Shown: positions 13,538-43,747 of the stretch, piece by piece
How the letters are laid out: every line of letters starts with the position of its first letter
Numbering within the stretch: position 1 is the stretch's first letter
IMG/VR virus record: IMGVR_UViG_3300009167_000004
Coordinates: 1 to 45,972 of that record
Source: a virus
Length of the DNA stretch: 45,972 bases
Strand: one strand, 5' to 3'
Notes under the pieces: generated by a model
Databases searched by the model: none
What the model was told of the DNA's origin: nothing
Seen by the model: only the letters and a program-made list of their open reading frames with translations
Program-made: the position numbers and the translations under genes

Positions 13538-13670
13538 CGTTTGTTCCTTCTGCTGCCTCTACGAATCTGAGGGAAGCGCGAAGCGATTCAATCTCGTCAC
13601 GATAGTGATATTCGGCCCATTCTTGGAACCGCTGTGGTTCCATAAATCGGTGGCCCTCGTAATGTCCCAT
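13476..13670 (-). CDS. Small hypothetical protein
   Basis: 64 residues from ATG 13670, which overlaps the helicase stop (TAATG) and has AAAGGGGG upstream. The frame can be extended to 13805 but only inside the helicase gene. Acidic C-terminus, no motif. It overlaps the next gene by 62 bases. Confidence 0.65.
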   Translation of the reverse strand: MGHYEGHRFMEPQRFQEWAEYHYRDEIESLRASLRFVEAAEGTNDETPLRSTGAPDSGGENGLA

Positions 13671-15364
13671 TATACCCCCTTTGATACGATTTCTTGATAT
13701 TCGGCTGGAGTGATTTTCCACCCATGTGAGTGTAGGTGTGCAATGAGTCTGTTGGCCGTTTCGAAGCGCAGCTTCAAAGCGGGGATATTTGCTCGAGTTA
13801 GACACTGGACTTGTCGGTAGGATGCCAGGCCGAGCGCTTCCCGTTTTTTGAGTGCGCCAATCAGAACAAACGCCTGTTGCTTGGTCAGGCCGTCCGGTAT
13901 CTTCACGCCTTTGTGAACGAGAAGATCCAGTTGAGACTTAGTGGCAATCGCCCCTCCGAACCGTTCCGACCATTGGACCTTATTACTGTTGATGTGAAGG
14001 CATTGGAACGGATCGAGTTCGAAGGTGGAGTATGAGACGTTGGCGATGATTCCCGCCCGCTTGACCACCTCAGCAGCCGCAGCAGCCGCAGCAGCCGCAG
14101 CTTTTTGGCGCTCTTCTTCTTCTGCCTCTTTCAGTGCGACGTCGGCACGGATTCCCGGCTTAGATTTGACGATTCTGACTGCGGACTGTAGGACCTCATC
14201 GGGATAGTTACCTCCCAGGATATCGCACGAGGTAGCCAGGCGGTGCATGCCTGAATTCCCCGTGAATTCAAGCACTAGACAGTCCTTTTTCCCTTCACAG
14301 ATACGAAGGCCACGGCCGATGATTTGAGCATGGAGACCCCGGCTCTTTGTTGGTCGTGCCTGTGCGATGCAACTCACTTCGGGGTTGTTGTAGCCTTCTG
14401 TGGCGATGCCACAGTTGACAAGTCGCTGGAAACCTCCCTTTGAGAATCTATCCAAAAGAGACCGTCTCAAGTCTATCGGCGTCCCCCCGTCGACCGAGAA
14501 CGTCGATCCGGGTTGGACACGGTTGAACATTTCGGCGAGACGTTTCGTGTTGTCGACGGACGTGGTGTAGACGATGGTTCGGCGGTCGCCCGCTTCGGCA
14601 ATGGTCGCACGTACAACGGCGTGAAGAACCTTCTCGACTGCCATGATGGCGTCGAGTTCTGCTGGGCTCAAGTCGCCGGCGACTTCCTTGCAGTGGGACA
14701 GATCGATCTCATTGACGTGCACCTGGCGGACCACGATAGGGCACAACCAACCGTCTTTCATGGCATCCGCAATCTCGTACACGTATGCCACGGATTCGAA
14801 GACCGTTCCCATCGCGGTTTCATCGGCCCGGTCAGGCGTAGCAGTTACGCCGATAGACTTTGCTTCTGAGAAGTACTTGTAGACCCGCTGCCACGTCGGA
14901 GATGGGCAGTGGTGCGCTTCATCGAAAATGATCAATCCGAAGTCGTTGGGACGCCACCTCGTGAGACGGTTCTCTCGAGACAGGGTTTGGATTGAAGAAA
15001 CGACGATACGCTCACTGCCGGCATAGTAGTCGGACTGTTCAAGTCCGATAAGCTCCCCAGTCGCATCACCGAGCTTGGTGCGGGCTTGTTGCAGCAGTTC
15101 GTCCCTGTGTGCGAGCACTAGCACCCGCTTCGAAACAGCGCTCTCGACAAATGGCCATTCGATCGCCGCTTGAACGAAGACGCGGGTTTTTCCGCATCCG
15201 GTCGGCATCACGAGAAGGGTAGATCGGTTTGTCTTCAGTTCTCGCTTGATCCCATCGAAGGCGGAAACCTGATATGGACGTAGGGGCTCCGCCCCTTGGA
15301 ACAGCTCGTCGGTGCTGCTGCAAGGGGCCCCTTTGCTTGGAGAGAAGTCGAGAACGAGTTGCAT
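13670..15364 (-). CDS. SF2 DEAH-box helicase, RadD/DEAD-family like
   Basis: 564 residues. Helicase motifs appear in order: Walker A PTGCGKT, motif II FDEAHH, motif III GVTATP, and motif VI QIIGRGLR near residue 350. This is the RadD/restriction-helicase type of superfamily 2, an ATP-driven DNA translocase. A poly-Ala stretch joins a C-terminal domain of ~140 residues with no helicase motif. The start overlaps the ParB-like stop (TAATG). In a phage without a visible polymerase it may remodel forks or recombination intermediates together with Erf. Confidence 0.88.
   Translation of the reverse strand: MQLVLDFSPSKGAPCSSTDELFQGAEPLRPYQVSAFDGIKRELKTNRSTLLVMPTGCGKTRVFVQAAIEWPFVESAVSKRVLVLAHRDELLQQARTKLGDATGELIGLEQSDYYAGSERIVVSSIQTLSRENRLTRWRPNDFGLIIFDEAHHCPSPTWQRVYKYFSEAKSIGVTATPDRADETAMGTVFESVAYVYEIADAMKDGWLCPIVVRQVHVNEIDLSHCKEVAGDLSPAELDAIMAVEKVLHAVVRATIAEAGDRRTIVYTTSVDNTKRLAEMFNRVQPGSTFSVDGGTPIDLRRSLLDRFSKGGFQRLVNCGIATEGYNNPEVSCIAQARPTKSRGLHAQIIGRGLRICEGKKDCLVLEFTGNSGMHRLATSCDILGGNYPDEVLQSAVRIVKSKPGIRADVALKEAEEEERQKAAAAAAAAAAEVVKRAGIIANVSYSTFELDPFQCLHINSNKVQWSERFGGAIATKSQLDLLVHKGVKIPDGLTKQQAFVLIGALKKREALGLASYRQVQCLTRANIPALKLRFETANRLIAHLHSHGWKITPAEYQEIVSKGV
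14071..14101 (-). repeat. 9-bp tandem repeat coding for poly-alanine
   Basis: Three copies of CAGCAGCCG plus a partial one, inside the helicase gene. They encode the Ala run that links the helicase core to its C-terminal domain. Such repeats change copy number easily without breaking frame. Confidence 0.85.
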
Positions 15365-16353
15365 TAGCCGATCGCAGATACGAGAATGAATGTCCCGTCG
15401 ATATAGACTCCGGCCTTGTCGCCTTCTGCTAGCAGCTTCTTGTCGTCGACGGATGTCATTTCATAGGCGTTCAGGAATCCCCGTCCGCTGCACGCAATGC
15501 ACTCCTTGCGGAGCTTCTTAGTACATTTGCACCACGGGCACAGGGAATCGGGCATCCTGACCTTGATATCCTCAACCGCATTTTCCAGCTGCGTTCTGAG
15601 GGTGTCGAGATCCAGGGAACTCTGCTTTTCGAGACGACGTGTCCATTTGATAAGTTCGATGATGTCACTTAGCATCGACTCGAGTTCGGTGTGCTCGAAA
15701 GTCGATTTTTTGACAACGTCGTCGGGTACCTCGAGTCCCATTGTGTTGATGCGGATATCCTGCTTCTCCTTTTTGGGTACCTTGCGGTTGGCATCTCGAG
15801 TCTCGGCCGCGCGAACCGCTGCCACGGTCTTGCCGGTCATTTTTGCTACCCGTTCCCGAGCTTTCGTTTTGGAGCCCTTTGGTCGGCCGACCTTTCGGGG
15901 TTCATTGGTAGTCTCGACTTCAGGTGCAGTTTCCTCCGAAGTTGAGGACTCCTCCTCTCCATTCGTATCAATCTCCGGAAAGGTTTGCGCTGGTTTTGGA
16001 TGTTCCAGCTCCATCAGTCTGGCAATTGCGGCGTCCAGTTCTGGTCCGCTGTGACGACGGCGGATGTTCTCGATAAGTGTAACCTTTTCAAGTTCTTCGG
16101 AGGTTCCAGAGATCAGCAGAGCATCAACTCGCTTGACCTCTTCGTTGAGACAAGCTGCCAGGCGGTCTCCTCCTGCTACCAGCTCGTTGGTTTTCTTGTT
16201 GACTATGATGGGCTCTGCTGGCTGTCCTCCAGTATCGGCAAAGCTTTTGCCGAGGTCGATTACATGGTCGGCCGCGCGGCGCTTTCCAATGTCACCCGGA
16301 GCCTTGATTCTTGCTACTGGGATCGTCTTGAATCCGTATCGTTTTATCATCAA
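15364..16353 (-). CDS. ParB-like N-terminal domain protein with AT-hook and zinc ribbon
   Basis: 329 residues. Residues ~10-110 match the ParB/sulfiredoxin-type domain: VARIKAPGD, DLGKSFADTG, PIIVNKKTNELVAGGDRLAAC (key G-G-x-R in the phosphate-binding loop) and ENIRRRH. An acidic linker is followed by an AT-hook-like GRPKGSK, a helical region, and a C-terminal CPWCKC...CIACSGRG zinc site. Phage ParB-like proteins can be CTP-dependent DNA binders or nucleases; which applies here is open. GGGAG precedes the ATG. It overlaps the upstream gene by 62 bases. Confidence 0.82.
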   Translation of the reverse strand: MMIKRYGFKTIPVARIKAPGDIGKRRAADHVIDLGKSFADTGGQPAEPIIVNKKTNELVAGGDRLAACLNEEVKRVDALLISGTSEELEKVTLIENIRRRHSGPELDAAIARLMELEHPKPAQTFPEIDTNGEEESSTSEETAPEVETTNEPRKVGRPKGSKTKARERVAKMTGKTVAAVRAAETRDANRKVPKKEKQDIRINTMGLEVPDDVVKKSTFEHTELESMLSDIIELIKWTRRLEKQSSLDLDTLRTQLENAVEDIKVRMPDSLCPWCKCTKKLRKECIACSGRGFLNAYEMTSVDDKKLLAEGDKAGVYIDGTFILVSAIG

Positions 16354-16606
16354 CTGTCTCCCTGTGTTGTCGTATGCGGTGGTGTGGCGAAATGCATTTC
16401 CATCCGCGTTGTTCTAGTAGTTGTGCCAGTGTGGCTATGCTAATGAAGCCATTGAAAGCTGTTGGCTCTCCTGTGTCGATAAGAAAGCCGGGCTCAGTAA
16501 CGACAAGCCTTCCATGATGGCTGTCGTGGTAATAGATGGGGGACGGTCCAGGCTCGACGTAGACGAGTATCGGTGAAGGAGCCGGAGGAACGGACATAGG
16601 GCTCAT
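16292..16606 (-). CDS. Hypothetical protein
   Basis: 104 residues from ATG 16606, two bases after the SMC-like ATPase stop. It begins Pro-rich with aromatic residues, then has a short helical segment (IATLAQLLEQRGW). The last 62 bases overlap the ParB-like gene, whose own start is well supported. Function unknown. Confidence 0.6.
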   Translation of the reverse strand: MSPMSVPPAPSPILVYVEPGPSPIYYHDSHHGRLVVTEPGFLIDTGEPTAFNGFISIATLAQLLEQRGWKCISPHHRIRQHRETVDDKTIRIQDDPSSKNQGSG

Positions 16607-16608
16607 AT

Positions 16609-17856
16609 CTACGCGTTCCCGCTGGTGTCGAGGACCTCTCCGTCCTCCAGAATTACAGCCCCTGGGTCGCCATCGCCGACGCGTTCGATCCAAACCTGGT
16701 AGCCTCGTTCGTGTGCCATTTCTGCGATCTCGCGCATGGCGGTTTTGTCAAGTAATGATGCGTCAGGGAGAAGGATAACGCCCAGCTTGGGGTGGAGGGC
16801 GCAAGCGATCGAGAACGAGATGCGGCGTCTCTCTGATGCTGAGGCTTGAGAGAACGGAAGTCCTCGGTAGGTAACCTGTCCGTCGGCAATGCTAAGTTCT
16901 GGAACTGGCCAGGCGGCTTCCTCGAGGAGCGTCTGCTTTTGGGAATCGATGGCCTCGATTGCCTTGGTCATACCCGCTGCTTCACGTTCCAGTTCCGTGC
17001 AGCGCTTCGATTCTTTCTCTCGACTGTGCTTGGCACGTACAAGTCGGTTGGTCATTTCTGCAGTAGAAAGTTTCTCGTTGACTATATCGAGATCTGCTTC
17101 TGGGCACTCATCCAAAGCCTTCTGTGCAATTGCGAGCTTGGCCTTGGCTTCGTTGGCCTTGTCCTCGAGGTTTTGGATAGTCTGTTGTAGATCGCTGACG
17201 CTCATTCTGATTCTTCCACGCCTGACGTTTTGAGCAGTTAGTCGTTCGTGCTCAGTAAGCAATTGGCCAATATGAACTTCTTCGTCAGGGGCATTTACGC
17301 ATTCGCGTGGAAAGTCTGCAATTCGTGTCTCCAGGACCTTGATAGAGCGATTGACCTGAGTACGCTCCTCGTAGAGGCGTGCGCGTGTCTGGTCAAGCTC
17401 GGTGAAGTCAAGGCCGAGCATCTTTCGCAGTACCTCGACTTGTTTCTTCTCCTCCAGTCGCTCGAAGGCGATAGGGTCAAATGAGATCTCAGAAAACAGC
17501 TTGTTGAGGATCTCCTGTGGGGATTTTTGTGGGGTACCGTCGGCCGTGCGGACTACGATTTTCTCGAGCCTCTTTCCCTCTCGTTCTATCGTGAGGTCGC
17601 CGAGGGAAATCTTGAAATTCCCCGTAGGTTCTCCTCGGCGCACGGGCTCCTCTGGAATCGCTCGGGCTCCGCGAAACGCCATCTCGATGCAGGCGAGGAC
17701 CGAGCTTTTCCCTTGGGCGTTGTCGCCGCCAAGTATCACGACAGGGCTCTCGGGGTCAGGCTCGATACGGACAGCCTTTAGCCGAAGGACGTTGTGCGCC
17801 TCGAGGGAAACTATACGTAGTAGTTTCTCGGTCTTGTTATTGTCATTCTGTATCAT
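16609..17856 (-). CDS. SMC/Rad50-like AAA ATPase
   Basis: 415 residues from ATG 17856 (AGAGGAG 5 bases upstream; ATGA overlap with erf). Walker A is GGDNAQGKS at residues 43-51. A coiled coil spans ~residues 165-320, short compared with Rad50. The C-terminal lobe has a signature-like QASASERRRISFSIACAL and a Walker B-like strand VILLPDAS. The Walker B lacks the usual DE pair, so ATP hydrolysis may be altered. The layout is that of SbcC/RecF-type repair ATPases, but no SbcD-type nuclease gene is nearby. A role beside Erf in recombination is likely. Confidence 0.85.
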   Translation of the reverse strand: MIQNDNNKTEKLLRIVSLEAHNVLRLKAVRIEPDPESPVVILGGDNAQGKSSVLACIEMAFRGARAIPEEPVRRGEPTGNFKISLGDLTIEREGKRLEKIVVRTADGTPQKSPQEILNKLFSEISFDPIAFERLEEKKQVEVLRKMLGLDFTELDQTRARLYEERTQVNRSIKVLETRIADFPRECVNAPDEEVHIGQLLTEHERLTAQNVRRGRIRMSVSDLQQTIQNLEDKANEAKAKLAIAQKALDECPEADLDIVNEKLSTAEMTNRLVRAKHSREKESKRCTELEREAAGMTKAIEAIDSQKQTLLEEAAWPVPELSIADGQVTYRGLPFSQASASERRRISFSIACALHPKLGVILLPDASLLDKTAMREIAEMAHERGYQVWIERVGDGDPGAVILEDGEVLDTSGNA

Positions 17857-18932
17857 TTCTGCTCCTCTGGTGGTTTCTTGGGTTGTGGTTCTGCCATCCA
17901 TGCTGGCTCCGGCTCTGGTACAGGCACCTCACCATTTTTGGCAGCGGTAATCAGCCGGGCGATCTCGGCGCAGCTCAGCTCTCGGAATCCTCCGATAGGT
18001 GCGGAACCGCGCATCATTCCATTCACCCATACCAGCTTTCCCCGTTTTTTCGCTACCGCAGCCTGTTTGTCGCCCAGTTTGGATACATCCCCCCATGGGG
18101 AAAGTGCGTCTAGAGCACTGTTCAGCTCGCGCACCTGTTCTTCGGTTGCCATTCCAGCGGCTGTCCCCAGTGCATTTGTCGTAGGAGGGCTAGTTGGTGG
18201 GGGGGTAGCGGACTTGGTACTATCCGTGTTGGTCGACGTTGGCGGCGTCGGTTTTTCGTTCTTTTTGGCGTGCTGTTCATTGGCGATAGCTACCAGCTTC
18301 TCGACCTCTTCAGCGGTCAAGGATTCCGAGCTGGGAACCTTGCGCCCGAGAGCAGTTTCGCACCACTTTTGGATAGCAGGTCCTTGGACGACTCCGATGG
18401 AGTCGAGGGCTTTCCATAGCGGTTGCAGCGGGTCTTGGGGTATAGCCTCGTTCCCTGCGGCCTGATTACCGTCGTCGTCGTACTCGCTGGCGACGTTGAG
18501 GAGACCAGAGATTAGGTATCTGCGCACGTAGGTCAGCAGGCGTCCGAAATCCTGGGGATCATCGCGAAGGGACCCCACTCGAGCAGAGCTGCGCATCCAT
18601 TGTCCGGATGAATGCAATAGCCAAACGTCACAGATGCCGTCCAGGCTAACTGTCGATGTTATTGACAGTCCGTTTTCAGAGAGAGCAGGTACTGTAGCCG
18701 CTAGAACGCTGTCCAGCGTTGCATATTGAAATTGATATTTTTCTCCCCGTTTGGTGGTAACGACTACCGTTCGATTCTTTTCAATTGGGGCAAACTTGCC
18801 TTGTGCTGCTGCTAGTGCCGTGATGAGTTTGTCGATCTCTGGGCTACGAGATGGAGATACGTTGTCGATCTCTGGACTGCGATATAGTGACGTGGTTTGG
18901 GTCGTTGGTGCGATTGGGGTCGTATCAGTCAT
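17853..18932 (-). CDS. erf: Erf-family single-strand annealing protein
   Basis: 359 residues. The ERF superfamily core lies at ~residues 33-160: ITALAAAQGKF, YQFQYATLDSVLAATVPALS, then LLTYVRRYLISGLLNVASEYDDDGN. Erf proteins anneal complementary single strands and can circularise phage DNA after entry, independent of RecA. A Pro/Thr linker (~225-255) and a C-terminal helical part follow. The extreme N-terminus has a duplicated SPEID element. Start and stop both overlap neighbours by ATGA, tying it to the ATPase downstream. Confidence 0.9.
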   Translation of the reverse strand: MTDTTPIAPTTQTTSLYRSPEIDNVSPSRSPEIDKLITALAAAQGKFAPIEKNRTVVVTTKRGEKYQFQYATLDSVLAATVPALSENGLSITSTVSLDGICDVWLLHSSGQWMRSSARVGSLRDDPQDFGRLLTYVRRYLISGLLNVASEYDDDGNQAAGNEAIPQDPLQPLWKALDSIGVVQGPAIQKWCETALGRKVPSSESLTAEEVEKLVAIANEQHAKKNEKPTPPTSTNTDSTKSATPPPTSPPTTNALGTAAGMATEEQVRELNSALDALSPWGDVSKLGDKQAAVAKKRGKLVWVNGMMRGSAPIGGFRELSCAEIARLITAAKNGEVPVPEPEPAWMAEPQPKKPPEEQK

Positions 18933-19222
18933 TTGTTATCCATTGGGTTGAAGGTGTTTCGGTAAGGAAGCCAGGAAAATAGGCTTACTGATACGCCATG
19001 CACTGGACAGCAGGTGATGGCGAGTCCGCGAAGCCTGCACCAGCATTGCTCAGCGTATACCAATGCGTTCCATCCCTCGATTGTTACTGATGGAAGGATT
19101 CTTGGCGGTTTGTGTTCTTCACAGAGAAGATCTCTGTTCCAAGTTCCATCTTTCTCGTGATCGAAGACGCCCACGGCTTCGTGTCCGCATATCGAACACG
19201 GCAAAAGCATGGTTGGACTCAT
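18929..19222 (-). CDS. Small zinc-binding hypothetical protein
   Basis: 97 residues with CSICGHEAVGVFDHEKDG, then CEEH, and later CWC/CCPVH: two probable zinc sites. ATGA overlaps on both sides place it translationally between the 122-residue protein and Erf. No function assigned. Confidence 0.75.
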   Translation of the reverse strand: MSPTMLLPCSICGHEAVGVFDHEKDGTWNRDLLCEEHKPPRILPSVTIEGWNALVYAEQCWCRLRGLAITCCPVHGVSVSLFSWLPYRNTFNPMDNK

Positions 19223-19587
19223 AGTGCCTTTGGCTTTCCCTGTAGGACGTATGGAAGAAGAGCCATCAGCTTGGCCTCACGCAGTTCGGTATCGGACATC
19301 TCTACGAGGTACGAGTGGGACACGAGAGGAGCGGGTGAGCATCCGATGAGGATCGCGCTTATCCATGGGCGTTCGGCCGCGAGAACCTGCCGGGCCCCAT
19401 GTTCGTTAGGGGCCACTGCAGAAAACTCGACCCTATCAACACACAGGAAGTGCCACCGCTGTGCATTCGGGCAGAGAAGCGATGCCAGTTGTTCTTGACG
19501 AGTACGCTCCGTTCGGCCCAGTCTCCAGTTCTCGCTACGCAGCCGTTTGGCGTAATGCTCGAGCGCTTTCGTGGTGTCGGGATTCAT
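19219..19587 (-). CDS. Hypothetical protein
   Basis: 122 residues; AAAGGAGT just before ATG 19587 is one of the strongest ribosome sites in the operon. Basic N-terminus and mixed alpha/beta character, no motif. First gene of the tightly overlapped recombination cluster. Confidence 0.75.
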   Translation of the reverse strand: MNPDTTKALEHYAKRLRSENWRLGRTERTRQEQLASLLCPNAQRWHFLCVDRVEFSAVAPNEHGARQVLAAERPWISAILIGCSPAPLVSHSYLVEMSDTELREAKLMALLPYVLQGKPKAL

Positions 19588-19610
19588 GGCTACTCCTTTC
19601 TATCTTCTGC

Positions 19611-19648
19611 ATTCCTTAGGCGGGTACATTGGCACTCGCCTAAGGAAT
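19611..19648 (-). terminator. Intercistronic 12-bp hairpin
   Basis: A perfect stem ATTCCTTAGGCG / CGCCTAAGGAAT around a 14-base loop, between the secreted-protein gene and the recombination cluster. There is no T run after it on either strand, so it is more likely a partial terminator or an RNA processing or stability element. Confidence 0.6.
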
Positions 19649-19659
19649 TTCTCTAGTAA

Positions 19660-19962
19660 CTACTCGCAGCGAACGGACAGCTTTCCGAACGCTCGACACG
19701 CGTACACTTCCTTGGCGTCGTAGCACTTGTGGTTCTGGTTGGCTTCTCGCCATGTAAGCATGGGCTCGCTGTCGTGGTCTTTGAGGACTACCCGGCCGAC
19801 TGAGCACGATGGGATGCCCGCGAACTTCGGGTCTGTGGTTGTGGTTTTGGATGGATTCTTGATGGTGGCGGGCAGGTCTTTGGTGGGGACGAACTTCCCC
19901 TTTTCTGCGGCAACGACGTTGCTCGAGACGAGGATTACAAATGCGACTACGAGGATCTTCAT
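19660..19962 (-). CDS. Secreted (periplasmic) small protein
   Basis: 100 residues with a clear Sec signal peptide: MKILVVAFVILVSSNVVAA, cleavage likely after AA. The mature ~80 residues have four Cys that could form two disulphides. AAGGAG lies 6 bases before the ATG. A phage protein exported during the early phase could block superinfection or alter the envelope; no family recognised. Confidence 0.78.
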   Translation of the reverse strand: MKILVVAFVILVSSNVVAAEKGKFVPTKDLPATIKNPSKTTTTDPKFAGIPSCSVGRVVLKDHDSEPMLTWREANQNHKCYDAKEVYACRAFGKLSVRCE

Positions 19963-19975
19963 GGTGTGCTCCTTG

Positions 19976-20458
19976 TTATGGGGTTGGAATTATGGTCTCT
20001 TTGATCTCGAAAAGCTCTGTCTTGTCCAGGGAACGAATACTGTTACATGCCATTTGCACCAAGTAATGAACACTGGAGACAACGTTGATGAGATATGGCA
20101 ATTGCTCCATGTCTACTATGTGGGTGATTTCCCCATTCGTCTCGATGCAAGACTCTCTGCCGTCGAATGGATGGGAAATTTTTGCGTGGAACAGCCATAC
20201 CTCCTCCTCATGTCCAGAAGCACCACTAGTAAGGCGTCCAAACAGTTGCCAGGCATGGATACGATCTGGAGAGTCGAATATACCTTTGGTTTCTTCGCGA
20301 AATTCCCGTTCCATTGCATGCATGGGACTTTCGTTATCTTCGATTTTTCCACCGATTCCGTTGAGTCTTCCTTTCTGCCATTCCGGATGGTTCTTAGCGA
20401 TCAGCAGGACGCGGCGATAATAAGAATCAAACATAAATCCAAGCACGTAGTTCTTCAC
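19976..20458 (-). CDS. Nudix hydrolase
   Basis: 160 residues starting with GTG 20458, with AAGGAG 6 bases upstream. The Nudix box reads G-KIEDN-E-SPMHAME-REFREETKG, matching G-x5-E-x7-RE-x2-EE-x-G with all metal-binding Glu present. The preceding LNGIGG is also typical. It should hydrolyse a nucleoside diphosphate linked to another group; the substrate (oxidised nucleotide, NAD(P), ADP-ribose or RNA cap) cannot be told from sequence. Confidence 0.92.
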   Translation of the reverse strand: MKNYVLGFMFDSYYRRVLLIAKNHPEWQKGRLNGIGGKIEDNESPMHAMEREFREETKGIFDSPDRIHAWQLFGRLTSGASGHEEEVWLFHAKISHPFDGRESCIETNGEITHIVDMEQLPYLINVVSSVHYLVQMACNSIRSLDKTELFEIKETIIPTP

Positions 20459-20489
20459 TATGGTCTCCTTTCTTGGGCTTTCCGCCCGT

Positions 20490-20517
20490 GGCTACCCTCG
20501 AGAGATCGGGGGCAGCC
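20490..20517 (-). terminator. Intercistronic hairpin
   Basis: On the - strand GGCTGCCC pairs with GGGTAGCC (8 bp with one G-U) around a 12-base loop, between the DUF932-like gene and the Nudix gene. No T run. Confidence 0.4.
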
Positions 20518-20530
20518 ATCGACGCGAAAG

Positions 20531-21688
20531 CTACGCAGCCTTGGCGAGCACCACGCCAGCCTCTTTTTCGAGGTCCAGGCGAGTCTCGATATCGGTTTCC
20601 GGCTGCTTGGCGACCCACGAAATTGCATTTGACCAGCGCCACGTCGTGTTCCCTGGGGGCAGCTCCTCGACGTCGGGCCGGTTAAACGCTTCGCCCACCT
20701 TTTCAGCGATTCCCTTCCCCAGCCGCTTGCGCAAATCAGCCAGCTTGGTCTTGGCGTCGATGTTTTCCGACGCGGCGGCGGTCAGAAGCTGGGCTGTTTC
20801 GGCGATTTTGGCGTCGGAAAGAAAGACGTTGGCAGTATCGCGCATAGCGGAAGAGGTAGCCTCTGCATCTAGCCGCATCGTGCGGTCGCTATAGGTAATG
20901 TCCTCCGAGAGGCGCGCTCCGAGGTGGATTTGGCGCAGCCCAGTCTCGAGAACGGCTCCGTTATAGCACCAGAGACGCATCGCGAACATGGAGATGGACT
21001 GGGCTCCGCGGCCGTAGTCGGAGTTGGACCACGATAGTCCCAGGACCACGAATTCGCCCGGAGCGATTTCTGTCACGCGGGGAATCAGGATACGGACACT
21101 CGCTCTGGTGTCCGTGACGATTGCATCTGTGACAAGCGCTCCGACTTTGTTGGAGACGCCGAGAAGCGTATCGAGGCCAGGCCGGCAGTCGACGCGTCGG
21201 AATTTGTCGCTCAGGAATCCGCGCATTTGGCCATTGAGACTGCGCACCAGGAAGCGATTGTCTCCGAGAACGTTTGCGGCGTGCTCGGTAAGGGACCGAG
21301 CGAGCAGGGACGACGCCCAATTCGGGGCCTGGTCTGCAGGAATGAATGCGCCATGTTTCTGGCGTTGTTCTTCCTGGTTTCTTGCAATAGCGCGAGCCTC
21401 GTCCTGCAGGTGACGGATGTACGCCATAGACATCCCGCATTTGTCGGCGAGCTGGGTCATTGCATTGCTGTGAATGGAGCCGTCAAATCCGTACCTGACG
21501 ACGATTTCACCCTCAGGGGCCTTTTCGAACACCATGGCGCCCCCTCGAGAGATGGTGTCCTGAGGAACCTCGGTCATGATGCGCTCGATGGCGTTTTCGG
21601 CCCGGTCGCGGGACTTGGCGATATACGCCTCGAGACGGGCAATGGCTGTTTCTCGGTTGTGCTGAGTGGTTGCGATAATTGGTTGCAT
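20531..21688 (-). CDS. DUF932-like protein
   Basis: 385 residues. The central part has the DUF932 look: LNGQMRGFLSDKFRRVDCRP, then GLSWSNSDYGRGAQSISMF and RLWCYNGAVLETGLRQIH. DUF932 proteins are common in phages and plasmids near recombination or anti-restriction genes; their biochemistry is unclear. GAAAGG lies before ATG 21688. It is followed by a hairpin rather than overlapping its neighbour. Confidence 0.75.
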   Translation of the reverse strand: MQPIIATTQHNRETAIARLEAYIAKSRDRAENAIERIMTEVPQDTISRGGAMVFEKAPEGEIVVRYGFDGSIHSNAMTQLADKCGMSMAYIRHLQDEARAIARNQEEQRQKHGAFIPADQAPNWASSLLARSLTEHAANVLGDNRFLVRSLNGQMRGFLSDKFRRVDCRPGLDTLLGVSNKVGALVTDAIVTDTRASVRILIPRVTEIAPGEFVVLGLSWSNSDYGRGAQSISMFAMRLWCYNGAVLETGLRQIHLGARLSEDITYSDRTMRLDAEATSSAMRDTANVFLSDAKIAETAQLLTAAASENIDAKTKLADLRKRLGKGIAEKVGEAFNRPDVEELPPGNTTWRWSNAISWVAKQPETDIETRLDLEKEAGVVLAKAA

Positions 21689-35842: not shown

Positions 35843-37399
35843 ATGGACATAGAAGAGCTGTATAAACCGTCTGACGTGCAAGCTGAGGGTCATGCTTGCC
35901 CTGCCAGGGTTATTCTGTACGGTGGAACAGCTGGCTGCGGGAAAACCTTGTTTTTGCGGCGCGATCCTGTCGTTACCCAACTGTGCGGAGAGATAGATAG
36001 GTTCGTCATGGCGAGAAGGGCCGGTCAGACCTTCAAATCGGTCGGCTGGGCTCTTCACCTGCGCAGAAACCGAACCATGCTCGAGCAAACCATCTTGGAC
36101 ATGCTCGATTTTTCCAAGAAGATGGATCCCGGGTGCGAGTGGAACAGTCAATCTAAGATTTTGACCCATACCTGTGGTTACCGGATGCAGTTCGGTCACA
36201 TGCAATACGAGGAGGACTACCGACAGTACGACACGAACGAGTATACGCATATCGCAATGGACGAGGCGGTGCAGTTCTTGTTCATTCAATACACAATGCT
36301 TCGCCTCCGCATCCGAACTGCAGATCCGATCTTGCGCGCAAAGCGCCGGATGGTTCTTGCCTCGAACCCGGACTCCCCAGCTGAAGGGGTATGGGTAAAG
36401 GAGAACTTTGTCGACCCCGCGCCACATGGAAGGACCATGCTACGCGAGACTGTGCGGTTGTTCGACGGAAGCCAAGAGACCTATACGCGGATGTATATTC
36501 CTGCGTTTATCACGGATAACCCTGACAAAGCCTATGCGCGTGCGTACGAGGCAGATCTCCGGACCCTTCCCTACCACATCCAGCAAGCACGTCTTTATGC
36601 AAACTGGAACGTTGTTGCGGGTGCGTTCTTTGAATATGAATTTCGACCAGATGTTCATATTGTTGCCCCATTCAAGATCCCTAGTTACATGACTAGGTTC
36701 CGTGTACTGGACTGGGGCTACAAAACAGCTGCCGTATGTAAGTGGTACGCTGTAACCGAGGATGATGATCTTATTTGTTATCGCGAGGTCACGTGGAACT
36801 ACAAGGTAGCGGACGAGGATAGAAAGGACTGCCAACTTGTAGCTATGGAAATTCGCAATATAGAAAAGAGAGCCGGAGAGTGGGATGAGGTGGAGAATTG
36901 CTCAAAGCTGACGGGACCGGCGGACACACAGATCTGTGAAAAGCGCGGTAACGTTGGGCCCACGATTGAAGAAAGAATGGCAGAAGAGGGGGTCTACTGG
37001 ATCAAATGCAGCAAGGATAGATTTGCTGCAACTCAAGAGTTACTGCGTCGCCTAAAGGACATCCCAAAACCTGGGAAGGGACGCCCAGGGATAACGTGGT
37101 TCAACACGTGTGTGCACACTGCCAGAACGATCCCAATGATAAAGGTGGACCCAGCAGATGCGGAGGTCCCGCTCAAGGGAGGAGACGATCACTGGCTCGA
37201 TTGCGACTTCTACGCTGTCCTTTATCGAGCCGGATCGTCGGATGTCAAGGATCGCGATGAGGTGGAAGACGTGAACGAGCCGGACGACATCATGCTTACC
37301 TTTGGATCGGCGGCGGCTAAGGCCGATATCGAGCGTAGGAAGCGACTGTTTGACAGTATAAAAACCGCACCTGGCGGAAAGTACGGCTACGGACTATAG
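35843..37399 (+). CDS. terL: Terminase large subunit
   Basis: 518 residues. The ATPase has Walker A GGTAGCGKT at residues 27-35 and Walker B THIAMDEA at ~136. The nuclease domain has its first acid in VLDWGYK near residue 290, later GPADTQ, and HWLDCDFYAV near the end, the usual RNase H-fold acids. It packages DNA into proheads and cuts it. Its ATG directly follows the previous stop. Length is normal for the family. Confidence 0.93.
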   Translation: MDIEELYKPSDVQAEGHACPARVILYGGTAGCGKTLFLRRDPVVTQLCGEIDRFVMARRAGQTFKSVGWALHLRRNRTMLEQTILDMLDFSKKMDPGCEWNSQSKILTHTCGYRMQFGHMQYEEDYRQYDTNEYTHIAMDEAVQFLFIQYTMLRLRIRTADPILRAKRRMVLASNPDSPAEGVWVKENFVDPAPHGRTMLRETVRLFDGSQETYTRMYIPAFITDNPDKAYARAYEADLRTLPYHIQQARLYANWNVVAGAFFEYEFRPDVHIVAPFKIPSYMTRFRVLDWGYKTAAVCKWYAVTEDDDLICYREVTWNYKVADEDRKDCQLVAMEIRNIEKRAGEWDEVENCSKLTGPADTQICEKRGNVGPTIEERMAEEGVYWIKCSKDRFAATQELLRRLKDIPKPGKGRPGITWFNTCVHTARTIPMIKVDPADAEVPLKGGDDHWLDCDFYAVLYRAGSSDVKDRDEVEDVNEPDDIMLTFGSAAAKADIERRKRLFDSIKTAPGGKYGYGL

Positions 37400-37407
37400 G
37401 AGATCCC

Positions 37408-39669
37408 ATGGTAGAGGAACAGGACGGGAATGTAGGAACCGAGGAAGAAACAGAGTCCCTACAGGACTCGGCTCCTTTGGAGTTTCCAGACGAAGCAGTT
37501 AATCTACTGCCATATCTAAAAAAAGTGGCAGCAACGGACGAGACGATTAGCAAATTCTTGAAAGAGAAGATGCCAGATATCGTTCGGAAACGATTCGATC
37601 AGTGCATCGAAGGCCGTAGCGAGTGGATAGAGAAACTGAAGGAACTGCAGCGGCTTTGGCTTGGAGCAATTATACCAAAGAAAGAGCCCTTCAAGAACGC
37701 GGCGAATATGCACATACCAATGTTGCTAAAAACAACATTGCGATTGGCGTTTCGTCTTCACGGAGAATTGTTCCGGGAAGGACGGCCACTTTTTTCGGTA
37801 CATGCGACTAACGCCGGTGTGGCCGAGAGAGCGGAAATACTATCGAAGTTCGAGAATTGGCAGTTTACGAAGGAAATACCGAACTTCGAACGGGAAGTAT
37901 TGCGGGCTGGGCTCCAGTTCTTCCGCGATGGAGAGGCGACTTTCTATTCGTATCGAGATGTAGAGAAGGGCGTAAATCGTCACGAGGCACTTTCCAATGA
38001 CGAGTTTGTATATCCATATACCTACAAAACAACCGCCCCAGATATGAGCGATGTCCCATACAAATTCATTGTATCGCGACGACAGAAGCGTGAATTGCGA
38101 GATCTGTCTCGAAACGGTTATTACGATAAGGACGCTGTCGACAAGGTTCTTAAAGAAGCCAAGGGTAGTGACGAGTCGGAGCTTGAAGAGATCCTACGAG
38201 ACACTTCAGATGAGCACGAAGGGGAGAACCGCAGGGAATACACAGAAGATTCTCCTATTATCATTCTTGAGTTTTGGGGATGGATTCAGTTCCCAAGACA
38301 GGACAGGGAAGTTCCAGTTCGCATAGCCCAAGAGATAAGTACCGACACGGTCCTGGGAGTCTACAGGAGAGAGTACGACGATCCAAACGACAGAATCCGC
38401 TATGACCGAGAAACTGCAGATCTGCAGCGTTATCAATCGGAAGTAGAACAACATCTCCGTGCAATGGAGATGGAACAGCAGGTCTTGCAGGCGGTTAGCT
38501 CACCAGCTGTCGATCCAATGGAGGCATCGCGGACGATTCAGGCTATGCAAGCCCAAAGGCCAATTCCTCCACAGAGACCAACGTGGATGAAGCTGGACGA
38601 GGCTACAGGAATGCCTCTTCCACCGGCTCCATGCAAACAGATACCAATTGAACCGTTCTCGCATGCCGTATGCATCGAGAATATCAATGGGAACCACGGG
38701 ATTGGATTTGGAACGATGCTTATGCCGCATCAGATAGCGGCAAATATCATGCTGAACCAGTTCATCGACCAGGCTACTCTTAACAACTCCTACGGTGGAC
38801 TCATACACGAGAACGTGAAACTCCCGTCAGGTATGACAACGCTTAATCCCAATGAGTGGATTCGGGTTAAGGGAGTTCCGATTGATTCGGTTGAAAAGGC
38901 CATGTTTCCCTACCGTCCACCGCTTGCCAATGGGCAGCTTTTGGATGGATTGCGAATGCAGTTAGGCGCGGCAGACGATATTTCCAGCGCCCCTGATGTC
39001 ATGTCGGGAGAAAAGGAAGGCGCGGAAACCTTCAGAGGGACGGCTACCCGCATAGAGCAGGCAACCAAGCAGTTGGCGGTTCCAGCTCGGGCCTTCATAG
39101 GGGCTCTTACACAGGTTGCGAAGAACAATGGACGTATCAACCACTTCTGGTTGCCCGCCGATAGGACGGTGACCATACGGAATCCAGCTACGGAACAAGA
39201 AGAGACGATCCATATCGGAAGGGATATGTATCGCGACGATTACGATGTCGCGTTCTCGGCTGATATGCGATTTATCTCCCGTGCTGCCGAGATCGGAGAG
39301 TCCGACGATATCCTTGGTATGTTGGTGAAGGGCTTCCCGGCAGAGATTGCCGGTTTGATTTTCAAACCTCAGATATTCTCGGAAGCGGCACGTATGTGCC
39401 TGAAGGCTAGAGGAGCAAGCAGTCTTCTGGTGTATGTCAGATCGGATGCTGAAGTAGATCAGGAAGTTATGAGGAGGCAGCAAGCTCAGCAGCAACAGAT
39501 TCCACCTCCACCACCGAACTCTACGAATAAGAAGCCGGGCCCGCCTCCGATGCCACGACCAATTCCACCTTCCATCCCAACAGGAGCGCCAAACGCTACG
39601 CCGGGAATGCAGCCACCACAGACACAACGCCCCGTAGGAACTCCGGAAGAGGCCGCACCAGGTAGATAA
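37408..39669 (+). CDS. Portal protein
   Basis: 753 residues, AGGAG 5 bases before the ATG. Features typical of podovirus portals: the early WIEKLKELQRLWLGAIIPKKEPFKNAAN region, central IENINGNHGIGFG and LMPHQIAANIMLNQFIDQATLNNS (the dodecamer core), and DISSAPDVMSGEKEGAETFRG, then a Gln/Pro-rich C-terminus. The length is close to the P22 portal (725). It follows TerL directly. Confidence 0.88.
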   Translation: MVEEQDGNVGTEEETESLQDSAPLEFPDEAVNLLPYLKKVAATDETISKFLKEKMPDIVRKRFDQCIEGRSEWIEKLKELQRLWLGAIIPKKEPFKNAANMHIPMLLKTTLRLAFRLHGELFREGRPLFSVHATNAGVAERAEILSKFENWQFTKEIPNFEREVLRAGLQFFRDGEATFYSYRDVEKGVNRHEALSNDEFVYPYTYKTTAPDMSDVPYKFIVSRRQKRELRDLSRNGYYDKDAVDKVLKEAKGSDESELEEILRDTSDEHEGENRREYTEDSPIIILEFWGWIQFPRQDREVPVRIAQEISTDTVLGVYRREYDDPNDRIRYDRETADLQRYQSEVEQHLRAMEMEQQVLQAVSSPAVDPMEASRTIQAMQAQRPIPPQRPTWMKLDEATGMPLPPAPCKQIPIEPFSHAVCIENINGNHGIGFGTMLMPHQIAANIMLNQFIDQATLNNSYGGLIHENVKLPSGMTTLNPNEWIRVKGVPIDSVEKAMFPYRPPLANGQLLDGLRMQLGAADDISSAPDVMSGEKEGAETFRGTATRIEQATKQLAVPARAFIGALTQVAKNNGRINHFWLPADRTVTIRNPATEQEETIHIGRDMYRDDYDVAFSADMRFISRAAEIGESDDILGMLVKGFPAEIAGLIFKPQIFSEAARMCLKARGASSLLVYVRSDAEVDQEVMRRQQAQQQQIPPPPPNSTNKKPGPPPMPRPIPPSIPTGAPNATPGMQPPQTQRPVGTPEEAAPGR

Positions 39670-39963: not shown

Positions 39964-40498
39964 AGAAGATCAAGGATTCATCGCAAGGATGAAAGAACAC
40001 GGATACTTGAACCTGGCCCGCAAGGTACAGGAACATTCAATTCCACCCTGGCCCGGAGAGGTTCCATTTTGGCGAATACTGGTGTACAGGATTCCAGATG
40101 AATTTTCAGCCAATGAAAAAGTGGGAAGAATCTATAAACCAACAACAACGCTAGATTTGCAGAAGAACCGCAGTCCACGTGGAATCATTGTGTCGGCTGG
40201 CCTTGCTGCAATGGACTCCCTGCGAGACCATGGAATGAAAATCGGAGACATGGTGTGGATCTCACCTAATTGTGTCTACCGAGTCGAAACAGGAAGAAAC
40301 GAAAAGGGTTCCATTGAGTTCTTTTTTGCCTATGTGGGAGAAATAGTCCTCAACGAGGACATCCCAGAACGATTGACATCGGGAGAAATCAAACTGGAGC
40401 GCGAGGGGAGAAATCATATCTACCGATGGAGAGACGATCTCGTCTCGTCCAATACGGAAGACAGGAAAGATCCTCCGGTATACAGCGACGACATCTAA
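39956..40498 (+). CDS. Hypothetical protein with cpn10-reminiscent stretch
   Basis: 180 residues from ATG 39956 (GGGAG 5-6 bases upstream). RGIIVSAG...DHGMKIGDMVWISPN and later VGEIVLNED resemble the beta-barrel strands of GroES-type co-chaperonins (G-x-V-x-x-x-G ... G-D-x-V). The resemblance is weak and the N-terminus differs. A head-assembly chaperone role would suit its place between portal and scaffold. Confidence 0.6.
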   Translation: MSEEDQGFIARMKEHGYLNLARKVQEHSIPPWPGEVPFWRILVYRIPDEFSANEKVGRIYKPTTTLDLQKNRSPRGIIVSAGLAAMDSLRDHGMKIGDMVWISPNCVYRVETGRNEKGSIEFFFAYVGEIVLNEDIPERLTSGEIKLEREGRNHIYRWRDDLVSSNTEDRKDPPVYSDDI

Positions 40499-40512
40499 GG
40501 GAGCGTGACAAC

Positions 40513-41493
40513 ATGGCAACCAAAACAGGACACGACAAAAAGCAAAGCGGAGATACCGGAGGGACGGGGACTGAGACACGAAATAACCGTGATGACGATG
40601 ATCGCGATGACGATGGGCAAGGTGATGAGGACCAAGCGGCAGACCAACGAGGAGATGGCGGGGAAGGAGATATTGCGGAAGTAGAAGTACGACAAAAAGG
40701 GGACAAGTTCGAGGTCACACGCGGGCCCGATAGCCGCAAAAAGATAAGGGCCGAAAGACGGGCAGCGGAAACTCGAGGCGTTGTCAACGAGGCAATGCGT
40801 CCGATGGTAGAGCGCTTAGAGGCTCTACAGCGAATGATGACTACGGCTCAGCAGTTCGTCCCTCCCAATCAGCACGAAAGACGGGAGGAAGAAAGACCGG
40901 AGCCAGAAGCCCATCGTAAGCGTATCCAAGAGCTTCGAAAATCGCAGCAACAACTGATGACGGTTATGCGGGCTACGCAAGATCCCAAAGAGATCGAACA
41001 GGCGCAAGAAACCTACTGGAAATTGCAAGATCAGATCGAGGATACAATTGCGGACACGGCGGTTGAAAGGTTCAAAAAGTCCATGCCTTCTCCACAAGAG
41101 CCCGAGGGGGTCCGGCAGTTGCGACGGCTCTACCCCGATGTAGTTAAGGACCCTCGCGCTATGATCCTGGCAAAAGCCAAGTTCGACAGCGCCAGGGTGA
41201 TGGCGGATATGCGTAATCAGCCGTTCGACTTGGCGAAAGAGGAAAGACTGGCAATGGAAGAAGCTGCCTATGAGTTGAATCTACGCCAGCGGCCGAGTCC
41301 GTCACCGAGTGAGGCCCAACGCTCACGGTTCGCCGGCAGCTCACCTGGATCTGGGGGATCGGGTACGGAGTTCACTCGGGAACTTTCCAACATAGAGCGA
41401 AGCGCCGCCATGGCTGCCTATCCTGAATTGTCGGAGGCAGAGGCCGTTTCGGCCTGGACGAGGAGAGTTGCCAAGGCAGGGTACTTCAAGTAG
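40513..41493 (+). CDS. Scaffold-type protein
   Basis: 326 residues from ATG 40513 (GGGAG 9 bases upstream). A disordered, very acidic N-terminus (NRDDDDRDDDGQGDED) precedes a long coiled coil (~80-200) and a Ser/Gly-rich linker. A small basic C-terminal segment (AWTRRVAKAGYFK) would bind the coat protein as in known scaffolds. It lies between the portal and capsid genes and ends just before a strong terminator. Confidence 0.75.
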   Translation: MATKTGHDKKQSGDTGGTGTETRNNRDDDDRDDDGQGDEDQAADQRGDGGEGDIAEVEVRQKGDKFEVTRGPDSRKKIRAERRAAETRGVVNEAMRPMVERLEALQRMMTTAQQFVPPNQHERREEERPEPEAHRKRIQELRKSQQQLMTVMRATQDPKEIEQAQETYWKLQDQIEDTIADTAVERFKKSMPSPQEPEGVRQLRRLYPDVVKDPRAMILAKAKFDSARVMADMRNQPFDLAKEERLAMEEAAYELNLRQRPSPSPSEAQRSRFAGSSPGSGGSGTEFTRELSNIERSAAMAAYPELSEAEAVSAWTRRVAKAGYFK

Positions 41494-41554
41494 GCAGAAT
41501 CATTGGATTGACGCATCGATTAACTGAACACATCGAACATAAAATCCCGCGTCA

Positions 41555-41587
41555 ACAGGGACCGAGCAAAATCGGTCCCTGTTTTTT
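41555..41587 (+). terminator. Strong rho-independent terminator after the scaffold gene
   Basis: Perfect 11-bp stem ACAGGGACCGA / TCGGTCCCTGT, 6-base loop, then six T. It separates portal/scaffold from the head genes, which therefore need read-through or their own promoter; TATAGT near 41621 could be a -10. Confidence 0.92.
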
Positions 41588-41654
41588 GTTGATCGTTCAT
41601 TCTATCTGTGGAACCATTTCTATAGTGGCTTTTTCCAGGTGTGGCCGCACCGTT

Positions 41655-41755
41655 CGGAACTGAGCCCTCCCAGGCCGACGCTCTTTCCCGGCTGGCGCTC
41701 GCGACAGCTGCGCGGAACTGAGCAAGAACCCGCGAGCTTGGGAGTGATGCTCATG
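41655..41755 (+). promoter_or_regulatory. Structured leader RNA that pairs with the ribosome binding site of the head operon
   Basis: A three-way junction. P1 pairs CTCCCA (41667-41672) with TGGGAG (41739-41744); the latter contains the ribosome site GGGAG of ATG 41753. P2 is a 5-bp stem (41673-41677 with 41689-41693). P3 is GCTCGCG (41697-41703) with CGCGAGC (41731-41737). CGGAACTGAGC occurs twice, at 41655 and 41713; its TGAGC can pair with GCTCA over the start codon. No known riboswitch class recognised. It likely controls head-protein synthesis. Confidence 0.62.
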
Positions 41756-42169
41756 GCTAACACGAACCAGGTCAAGACTGCGGCTACGGCTACGAGGAAA
41801 GATCCGAAACCCCGTTCAATGCGAGCAAATGCAATCGGGGGTCACGTTATCGACAAGAGGGATGACCGGGCCTACAAGTGGGCCAACCCGAATGACGAGT
41901 CCTTTGGACTTGTTTTCTGTCTGGCAGACGGATGGAACAAGGTCAATGCGAAGATCGACAAAGAGCGTGGCCGTTTGGGTCGCGTAGCGGACAACGGAGA
42001 GGACGTGATCTGGAAGGGTCAGGTTCTCGTTTGGATGGATAAAGAGGAGTTCGACAGCCGAGATGCGGAACGTGGTGAGTTCGTTGAGCGTCACGAGATG
42101 GCCAAGCAAAGGCCAGGCGGAATCGATGCGATCGTAGGGCCAGACGGAGAGTTGGCCACGAACATGTAA
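41753..42169 (+). CDS. Small head-region protein
   Basis: 138 residues from ATG 41753, GGGAG 8 bases upstream inside the leader structure. Basic, disordered N-terminus and a compact alpha/beta part (DESFGLVFCLADGWNKVN). First gene after the terminator and structured leader, so it may set the expression of the capsid operon. Function unknown. Confidence 0.72.
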   Translation: MANTNQVKTAATATRKDPKPRSMRANAIGGHVIDKRDDRAYKWANPNDESFGLVFCLADGWNKVNAKIDKERGRLGRVADNGEDVIWKGQVLVWMDKEEFDSRDAERGEFVERHEMAKQRPGGIDAIVGPDGELATNM

Positions 42170-42199: not shown

Positions 42200-42829
42200 A
42201 TGTCAATTCAGCCCCAACGTGGCGGAGCGAGGTGGGTAAAAGCCCTCGGAGTCAATGGACCTGGCACTCCGCCGATTGTTCCGAAGCTCGTAGCAAGCAA
42301 CAACACTCTGGCTCTTTTCGCGGGAGACTGGCTTGAAGAGTTGGCCGACGGTACAGTCTATCCGTGCACCACAGGAGGGGGAGCGCATCCGAAACTATCC
42401 TACGTGATGGTTTCGGCAGATCGCTATCTGGGCTCTGATGGCCTACTCAGAAAAGGGCAATTCGTTCCTGCTGCAACGGTCTATACCGGAGTAGTGTCGC
42501 TATCCAATCCGCTTTCGACCGTCGTTCTCTGTATTCCGGTCGAAAATCAAATCTTCGAGGTCGACATTCCTACTGCGGCGGCAACATGGACAGCTGCCAC
42601 TGCTTTGATCGGAAAGTGTGCCGATATCATCGCAACCGCGGGAAGCACTGTGAACGGGCTCAGCGGCCACACTTCGGTGGCGGTCGCCAACTTCGAAGCA
42701 ACAACCGTGTCGGGACAAATGCTTCTTCGTGAAGTTCCGGAATACGGCATGGATGGGAGAGCAAACGACCCGACTACCACCTATTGGAAGGGCTGGTTCC
42801 AGGCCTACGAGACGCTGGCCGTGGTCTAA
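42200..42829 (+). CDS. Probable head decoration / structural protein
   Basis: 209 residues from ATG 42200 (GGAG 9 bases upstream). Beta-rich with typical small-barrel strands (YVMVSADRYLGSDG, STVVLCIPVENQIFEVDI) and a C-terminal LLREVPEYG. Directly precedes the capsid gene, where decoration or stabilising proteins are commonly coded. Confidence 0.7.
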   Translation: MSIQPQRGGARWVKALGVNGPGTPPIVPKLVASNNTLALFAGDWLEELADGTVYPCTTGGGAHPKLSYVMVSADRYLGSDGLLRKGQFVPAATVYTGVVSLSNPLSTVVLCIPVENQIFEVDIPTAAATWTAATALIGKCADIIATAGSTVNGLSGHTSVAVANFEATTVSGQMLLREVPEYGMDGRANDPTTTYWKGWFQAYETLAVV

Positions 42830-42841
42830 AGGAGACATGAG

Positions 42842-43747
42842 ATGATTACGTCAAATGCAATCTGGAAGGCCCTTGAAATCACCATCAACACCATGACGAC
42901 AGATGATCTGTCGAAGAAACAGGTCTGCATCGGTCCTGGCAAGCTTGTTCAAATCGAAACGCAGAAGAAGGCCTTCACCGACGATACTGAAGTAGCAAGC
43001 ACCACTCTACTTGCAGAGAAGCGCCAGGGACAACCGATGGTGCCAGAAGACATCATTTTGGGAGGTCGCAAGCGCTATCTCCCGAAGACGATGGCCAAGA
43101 AGGTGACCATTACCGAGGAGGCCACTGAGGACAACGATATTCCAGAGCTCCTACGTCCTTCGCAGCGGCTCTTGGCTTCCGCATACAAGACGCAGGATAT
43201 CGATGTAGCTGGACTGGTGATTCAGTCGACCGCCGTGGTTGGTGGGTACGACAACGTAGTGCTGGCCAGCACCGCTCACGTATTGCCAACTGGTGGTACC
43301 GAGTCGAACTATCTCAATGGCGGGGTTGGCATGACTCCTTCGGTGCACGCTCTGATCCAAGCAGCAGCGATGGGGGCTCTTCTGAAGGGACCGAACGGAA
43401 TCATCGATGGCGTAACGATCAAACTCATCGTCTGTCCAGAGATTCAAAGGTATCTGTGGCAGGCTATTATCGGAAGCGACCAGCTTCCAGGGACCAACTT
43501 CAACGATCTCAACGTCGTTAAGGATATGAAGCTAGGCTTGCTTCCTATCAAGTGGTTGGATGCGTCGTCCACAACTCAGTGGGGTCTCAAGACCGATGCA
43601 GACAACGGTTTCCGCTGTCTCATGCGCCGAAAGGTCAGGTCCACGACCTGGTCCGATCCTGACGGCGAGGCTGCCCATCACGGAGTCAGCTACCGCATGT
43701 CGTTGGGACATTCCAATTGGCGAGTCTGGATTCAAGGCTCCGTATAG
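42842..43747 (+). CDS. Major capsid protein
   Basis: 301 residues, GGAG 7 bases before the ATG. The layout is that of a HK97-fold coat without a large delta domain: N-terminal helix (IWKALEITINTM), then the E-loop-like LAEKRQGQPMVPEDIILGGRKRY. A spine helix lies in ELLRPSQRLLASAYKTQ. The A-domain strands include VTIKLIVCPEIQ and end in FRCLMRRKVRSTTWSDPDG and a C-terminal HSNWRVWIQGSV. Its place after the scaffold and decoration genes supports the call. Confidence 0.8.
   Translation: MITSNAIWKALEITINTMTTDDLSKKQVCIGPGKLVQIETQKKAFTDDTEVASTTLLAEKRQGQPMVPEDIILGGRKRYLPKTMAKKVTITEEATEDNDIPELLRPSQRLLASAYKTQDIDVAGLVIQSTAVVGGYDNVVLASTAHVLPTGGTESNYLNGGVGMTPSVHALIQAAAMGALLKGPNGIIDGVTIKLIVCPEIQRYLWQAIIGSDQLPGTNFNDLNVVKDMKLGLLPIKWLDASSTTQWGLKTDADNGFRCLMRRKVRSTTWSDPDGEAAHHGVSYRMSLGHSNWRVWIQGSV

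Follow-up and report, generated by a model that had tools for sequence, protein, structure and literature searches.

Tandem pseudoknots and a ribosome-site hairpin in the leader of a phage head operon as a putative translational operator

Comparison among related phages indicated that the leader of the head operon studied here is built of two tandem copies of a bulged, pseudoknotted hairpin of ~41 nt, followed by a third hairpin around the ribosome site. The window, by which we mean the whole stretch of DNA analysed (45,972 nt), is a single linear viral record. At the level of sequence, the comparison showed that the RNA structure is conserved, that it belongs to the sense strand, that it sits before or at the ribosome site, and that it is restricted to the head operon. 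On balance, this leader of two tandem pseudoknotted domains and a ribosome-site hairpin is probably a translational operator of the head operon.

The leader and the genes around it were arranged in the window as follows.

35843-37399: terminase large subunit (PHROGs match)
37408-39669: portal-like protein (weak PHROGs connector match)
40426-41493: scaffold-like gene (inferred from its position)
41554-41583, + strand: intrinsic terminator, taken to end the upstream portal/scaffold-like transcript (12-bp stem, 6-nt loop, then the T tail TTTTGTTGAT)
41589-41617, + strand: probable head-operon promoter (TTGATC 41589-41594, 17 nt, AACCAT 41612-41617), its end 9 nt 5' of the first hairpin
41740-41744, + strand: ribosome site GGGAG of head-operon gene 1, 8 nt to ATG 41753
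41753-42169, + strand: head-operon gene 1, 138-aa protein (homologues at the same place in relatives)
42200-42829, + strand: head-operon gene 2, conserved 209-aa protein (homologues in the same order in relatives)
42842-43747, + strand: head-operon gene 3, major capsid protein (Pfam and tblastn)

An earlier note on this DNA had placed head genes downstream of the leader, which the capsid gene bore out: it gave a weak Pfam match (PF25209 Phage_capsid_4, E 2e-5), just under the family's cut-off, and tblastn matches to proteins annotated as capsid in Pelagibacter phages and others. The two genes before it had no family match in Pfam or PHROGs. A direct search with the window's 138-aa gene returned no matches, and a search with its L012 homologue returned only already known contigs; conserved directly after the leader, the 138-aa protein is a candidate regulator or head component. 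GGGAG, named as the ribosome site in the same note, was plausible as such, and GGAG was kept at this position in all close relatives. Elsewhere in the window, the minus strand at 13670-21688 carried DNA-handling genes (a DEAD/ResIII helicase, an SbcC-like ATPase, an ERF-family recombinase, and the conserved phage protein phrog_1362).

The strong terminator noted earlier was found upstream of the leader, and a comparable hairpin and T run were seen by eye at that position in L011, L012, L014, L015, L027, and L065. In 13 of 15 leaders (the window and 12 relatives), two hexamers, the first of them TTGAC-like, were separated by 16-17 nt, and the second ended 8-10 nt 5' of copy 1; L009 and L023 had no convincing hexamer pair. 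The window's own hexamers were weak, and a stricter sigma-70 scan found no promoter in its leader; the promoter call in the window therefore rests on conserved position. As the promoter-like hexamers end so close to copy 1, the head-operon mRNA probably starts at or just before it. In L009, a tandem duplication of ~27 bp (GATTTATTTTGACTCCATCCCAGAC, within 3760-3830) takes in the 5' arm of copy 1 as well as the promoter region, and a partial extra 5' arm thus lies ahead of that leader.

The comparison drew on about 15 related uncultivated phages, some brought in by their capsid protein and more by two motif scans. Wherever gene order was readable it was shared (scaffold-like gene, gap, small gene, 209-aa-type gene, capsid), and each close relative had the leader in that gap, with two tandem copies of the domain; in L073 only copy 2 was covered, and in L010 copy 2 was divergent and was parsed by hand. 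The copies followed one plan, in which stem A (GCUC/GAGC), a small internal loop, stem B (UUCC/GGAA), a single pair X, and stem C lead to a loop that pairs just 3' of the hairpin. The 3' side of X is flanked by two nucleotides, mostly GU or GC, and by a bulged C, which was present in 28 of 31 copies. In the window, the conserved structure begins at 41627, about 28 nt further upstream than the element described earlier, and was assigned as follows.

41627-41666, + strand: copy 1 of the RNA domain (hand-parsed counts, covariation test, model match)
41627-41631 / 41662-41666, + strand: copy 1 stem A, GGCTT/GAGCC
41633-41636 / 41656-41659, + strand: copy 1 stem B, TTCC/GGAA
A41637-T41654, + strand: copy 1 pair X, with bulged C41655
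41638-41641 / 41648-41651, + strand: copy 1 stem C, GGTG/CACC
41642-41677, + strand: pseudoknot 1 (PK1), copy-1 loop TGGCC 41642-41646 with GGCCG 41673-41677
41680-41723, + strand: copy 2 of the RNA domain (parsed counts, covariation, MAFFT alignment, model match)
41680-41683 / 41720-41723, + strand: copy 2 stem A, GCTC/GAGC
41685-41688 / 41714-41717, + strand: copy 2 stem B, TTCC/GGAA
C41689-G41712, + strand: copy 2 pair X, with bulged C41713
41690-41694 / 41705-41709, + strand: copy 2 stem C, GGCTG/CAGCT
41697-41737, + strand: pseudoknot 2 (PK2), copy-2 loop GCTCGCG 41697-41703 with CGCGAGC 41731-41737, ending 2 nt before GGGAG
41719-41753, + strand: hairpin 3, enclosing the ribosome site, TGAGCA 41719-41724 with TGCTCA 41748-41753, including the A of the start codon

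PK1 of the window itself is short (4-5 bp), and its hairpin-3 arm, which was chosen by hand, is placed differently from those of the relatives.

Covariation among the copies carried the assignment. Pair X, whose positions are fixed by the neighbouring CC and GG, was paired in all 31 hand-parsed copies by A-U (5), C-G (18), U-A (5), G-C (2), or U-G (1). The copy-1 loop and its downstream strand changed together (UUCUAGCC/GGCUAGAG, CCUGCC/GGCAGG, CCAGUC/GACUGG, UCUCGUC/GACGAGA, UCCAUC/GAUGGG), as did those of copy 2 (CCCTCGC/GCGAGGG, TCCTCGTG/CACGAGGA, in RNA UCCUCGUG/CACGAGGA, GCTCGCG/CGCGAGC, TTCTCGC/GCGAGAA, ACCCG/CGGGT). Summed over 16 copy-1 loops, PK1 complementarity was 249 against 158 +/- 9.6 for shuffled sequences, and for PK2 the sum was 283 against 185 +/- 9.3, each beating all 500 shuffles; the mean for PK1 fell from 15.6 in native leaders to 10.9 when strands were swapped between phages. 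In relatives, hairpin 3 takes the form GCGYTCA(C)/(G)TGARCGC and likewise covaries (GCATTCAC/GTGAATGC, GCGTCA/TGACGC), its complementarity sum of 278 lying above every shuffle (143 +/- 8.1). The PK2 strand ended within about 3 nt of GGAG, or overlapped it, in nearly every leader, and the spacer between stem A and PK1 was only 2-6 nt.

A phylogeny-aware covariation test found 8 of 1275 column pairs significant, all 8 of them proposed pairs (X, C2, C3, P0-P4), and the top 12 column pairs in the ranking were all proposed. This home-made test was modelled on R-scape, substitutions being spread anew over a tree, and its E-values stood at the floor set by 60 null alignments; the pseudoknot columns had been picked by best complementarity, which makes the shuffle test the fairer control for them, whereas X and C were not picked in this way. 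In a structure-blind MAFFT alignment, 95.0% of cells were paired, compared with 85.0% when shuffled and at most 55.6% when slid, and the covariation score was 0.304 against 0.129. On the extended copy-2 region MAFFT misaligned the anchors, and that alignment was left out of the pair counts. A covariance model (R2), built from 19 copies of relatives with the window excluded, matched the window at 41628-41665 (E 1.8e-7) and at 41680-41723 (E 1e-7) and nowhere else in it.

The proposed pairs contained 40 G-U cells and no A-C cells, indicating that the structure is an RNA of the + strand and ruling out a DNA cruciform or a minus-strand RNA. A coding role for the leader was also considered and rejected: in the window a frame is open from GTG 41639 into the 138-aa gene, but the in-frame stop of the relatives is placed variably, and the G-U pairs speak for a constraint on RNA. 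The open frame through the leader (41639-41752) looks accidental.

The domain was confined to the head-operon leader, once per genome, in the 10 relatives' contigs that carry it, which were scanned whole, and no significant copies were found elsewhere in the phage genomes. A nucleotide search of the leader against isolate phages and plasmids gave only chance matches of ~30 nt. An Rfam 15 covariance scan at gathering score yielded 0 matches in the window and 0 in eight relatives, ruling out a known Rfam class in agreement with the earlier observation that no known class was recognisable; permissive scans of the leaders gave sub-threshold matches only.

Among more distant phages, six with 36-42% capsid identity (L018, L021, L022, L024, L025, L079) had a copy-2-type domain, UCC-X ... 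X-N-GG, in a descriptor scan, each scoring above at least 95 of 100 shuffles. The strand that pairs with the loop (e.g., CCGC, UUCCGC) in these six lies on the ribosome site or close to it (GCGG, GCGGAG). The same scan stayed mostly at shuffle level in still more distant relatives (L081 and beyond), for which we do not claim the domain. This distribution suggests that the copy linked to the ribosome site came first, the tandem copy being a feature of the closer group.

Transcription probably starts just before copy 1, and the downstream strand of PK2 falls within the hairpin-3 loop, next to the Shine-Dalgarno sequence or on it. With PK2 and hairpin 3 formed, a helix on either side would confine the ribosome site to a few nucleotides and should hide it until the helices are melted. 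Anything stabilising both domains would then repress the head operon, and its absence would allow ribosomes to enter. The putative ligand would most likely be a structural protein or another late protein of the phage, which might touch both copies as a dimer; that the leader represses, in which direction, and through which ligand is what we infer. Several features of the leader count against this reading. Few of its unpaired bases are invariant, copy 1 lies ~90 nt from the start codon, and hairpin 3 of the window shares bases with stem A of copy 2, so that the two compete. The spacer of 2-6 nt also demands a sharply bent hairpin, as it is too short for a straight stem of 13-14 bp; a bend at the bulged core probably folds the hairpin back. 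A nested fold containing the helix P1 of the earlier note is very stable on paper as well.

Translational feedback by coat proteins is classical in RNA phages, and to our knowledge it is little documented for the capsid operons of tailed DNA phages. In searches of open-licence papers for a pseudoknot in a phage capsid leader, nothing came closer than the STAXI motif and the T4 gene 32 operator. In T4, a phage protein represses its own gene through a leader pseudoknot, which lies near the 5' end of the mRNA, upstream of the ribosome site (PMC535899). That operator, for a single-stranded-DNA-binding gene, has one pseudoknot of ~28 nt and then a stretch of weaker structure that contains UUAAA repeats (PMC535899), whereas the leader described here combines two domains of larger size with a third hairpin enclosing the ribosome site and precedes a capsid operon. 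As in gene 32-type operators, its structure includes or abuts the ribosome site. The gene 32 operator is the nearest system in function, although the leader is not a member of it.

For tandem pseudoknots, the published idea that comes closest is STAXI (Weinberg et al. 2010, PMC2864571), in which a pseudoknot is repeated two or three times in tandem, as the two pseudoknotted copies are in the leader. However, the genes found near STAXI are ssb, topoisomerase, and antirestriction genes, its loops are often UUCG, and its description mentions no overlap with a ribosome site (PMC2864571), whereas the neighbours of our leader are portal, scaffold-like, and capsid genes. The STAXI covariance model matched neither the window leader nor the leaders of two relatives at E <= 10, and the leader is not a member of this motif.

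The strongest rival to an operator is a shield at the 5' end of the mRNA, in which the tandem pseudoknots would block 5'-to-3' decay (RNase J-type or RppH-dependent entry) and make the capsid mRNA long-lived, as the tandem exonuclease-resistant RNAs (xrRNAs) of flaviviruses do. We rank it so because the fold lies within a few nucleotides of the predicted transcription start and because a flavivirus xrRNA stops the bacterial RNase J1 in vitro (PMC5760640). Viral xrRNAs of flaviviruses and dianthoviruses are likewise compact pseudoknotted domains, tandem in flaviviruses, and the duplication and loop-to-downstream pseudoknots of the leader resemble them. However, those elements stop exonucleases on the RNAs of RNA viruses, whereas the domain here forms the 5' leader of a DNA phage and is locked to the ribosome site, and no ring-shaped three-way junction was found in it. 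Protection from decay also leaves unexplained the position of PK2 and hairpin 3 on the ribosome site and the pairing of the loop with the ribosome site itself in the distant relatives, and we consider it unlikely.

A metabolite riboswitch, with two tandem aptamers acting cooperatively to report the state of the cell to the late genes, is a quite unlikely reading. Tandem glycine riboswitches provide a precedent for cooperative tandem aptamers, and SAM-II, preQ1, and Glutamine-II riboswitches sequester the ribosome site by loop-downstream pseudoknots. In the leader, as in these three, a hairpin loop is paired to sequence further 3' that lies on the ribosome site or close to it, and the tandem copies have a conserved bulged core. 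The leader differs from them in its tandem build and its phage structural genes, which are not metabolic, and no Rfam covariance model matched it. Few unpaired bases are invariant among the copies, and a ligand site is therefore not evident. Natural riboswitches usually control host genes too, but 198 genomes of one bacterial phylum gave 3 matches to the domain at E <= 0.01, where about 2 were expected by chance.

Very unlikely is an antitermination element of the Put type, whose hairpins in the nascent RNA would make RNA polymerase pass terminators in a long late operon. The put sites of HK022 are indeed paired RNA hairpins near the starts of transcripts, but the domain occurs once per genome, in the head operon only, it is locked onto the ribosome site, and no reason for read-through was found in the head operon.

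The operator reading retains the general idea of the earlier note, a cis-acting translational switch before the head operon, which is the best-supported reading, and replaces its anatomy. That note had proposed a three-way junction whose closing helix P1 pairs CTCCCA (41667-41672) with TGGGAG (41739-41744), hiding GGGAG. The two strands are there and complementary, 6-7 bp are available in the window, and P1 appears in the nested minimum-energy fold, which is very stable on paper (-51.3 kcal/mol). However, the nested fold of 41640-41770 was no stabler than shuffles, 79 of 200 of which did as well (z = -0.26). P1 was present only in the window and missing from all 14 comparable leaders; mean complementarity at its place was 2.4 bp over 15 leaders, compared with 2.1 bp when shuffled. 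The refutation test that the note itself had chosen, a lack of compensatory changes in P1-P3, went against the junction, and the same test strongly favours the pseudoknots. As P1 would also break the conserved PK1 and PK2, the three-way junction is highly improbable as the working structure, or as one state of a switch that is peculiar to this phage. Comparison with relatives was needed here because the leader as a single sequence folds no better than shuffles; single-sequence folding misled, and the comparison gave a clear answer.

More tentatively, the leader may represent a new natural class of RNA, in which a sharply folded tandem pseudoknot with a bulged core would gate translation of the capsid operon in a DNA phage through a loop-loop lock on the ribosome site, and would be recognised by a late phage protein, which would keep capsid synthesis matched to assembly. 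It is a compact, heavily covarying RNA with no Rfam family, spread across a group of uncultivated phages, with clear contact to the ribosome site and probably a promoter of its own. Structure determination has a concrete target in it, as has the search for a new RNA-protein or RNA-ligand pair, and it is a possible part for controlled expression.

Other leader elements were seen at the edges of the group. Where copy 1 would be expected, ~60-100 nt 5' of the ribosome site, L018 and L025 shared a second element (CCTCCA ... GGGTACGGTT) that differs from the tandem domain. In the most distant capsid relatives (L099, L100, L101, L103, L104, L105), the small gene was preceded by a different, simple hairpin directly ahead of the ribosome site (e.g., CCGTCTGAACC-GATG-GGTTTCAGGCGGAG), which is possibly another sequestering leader.
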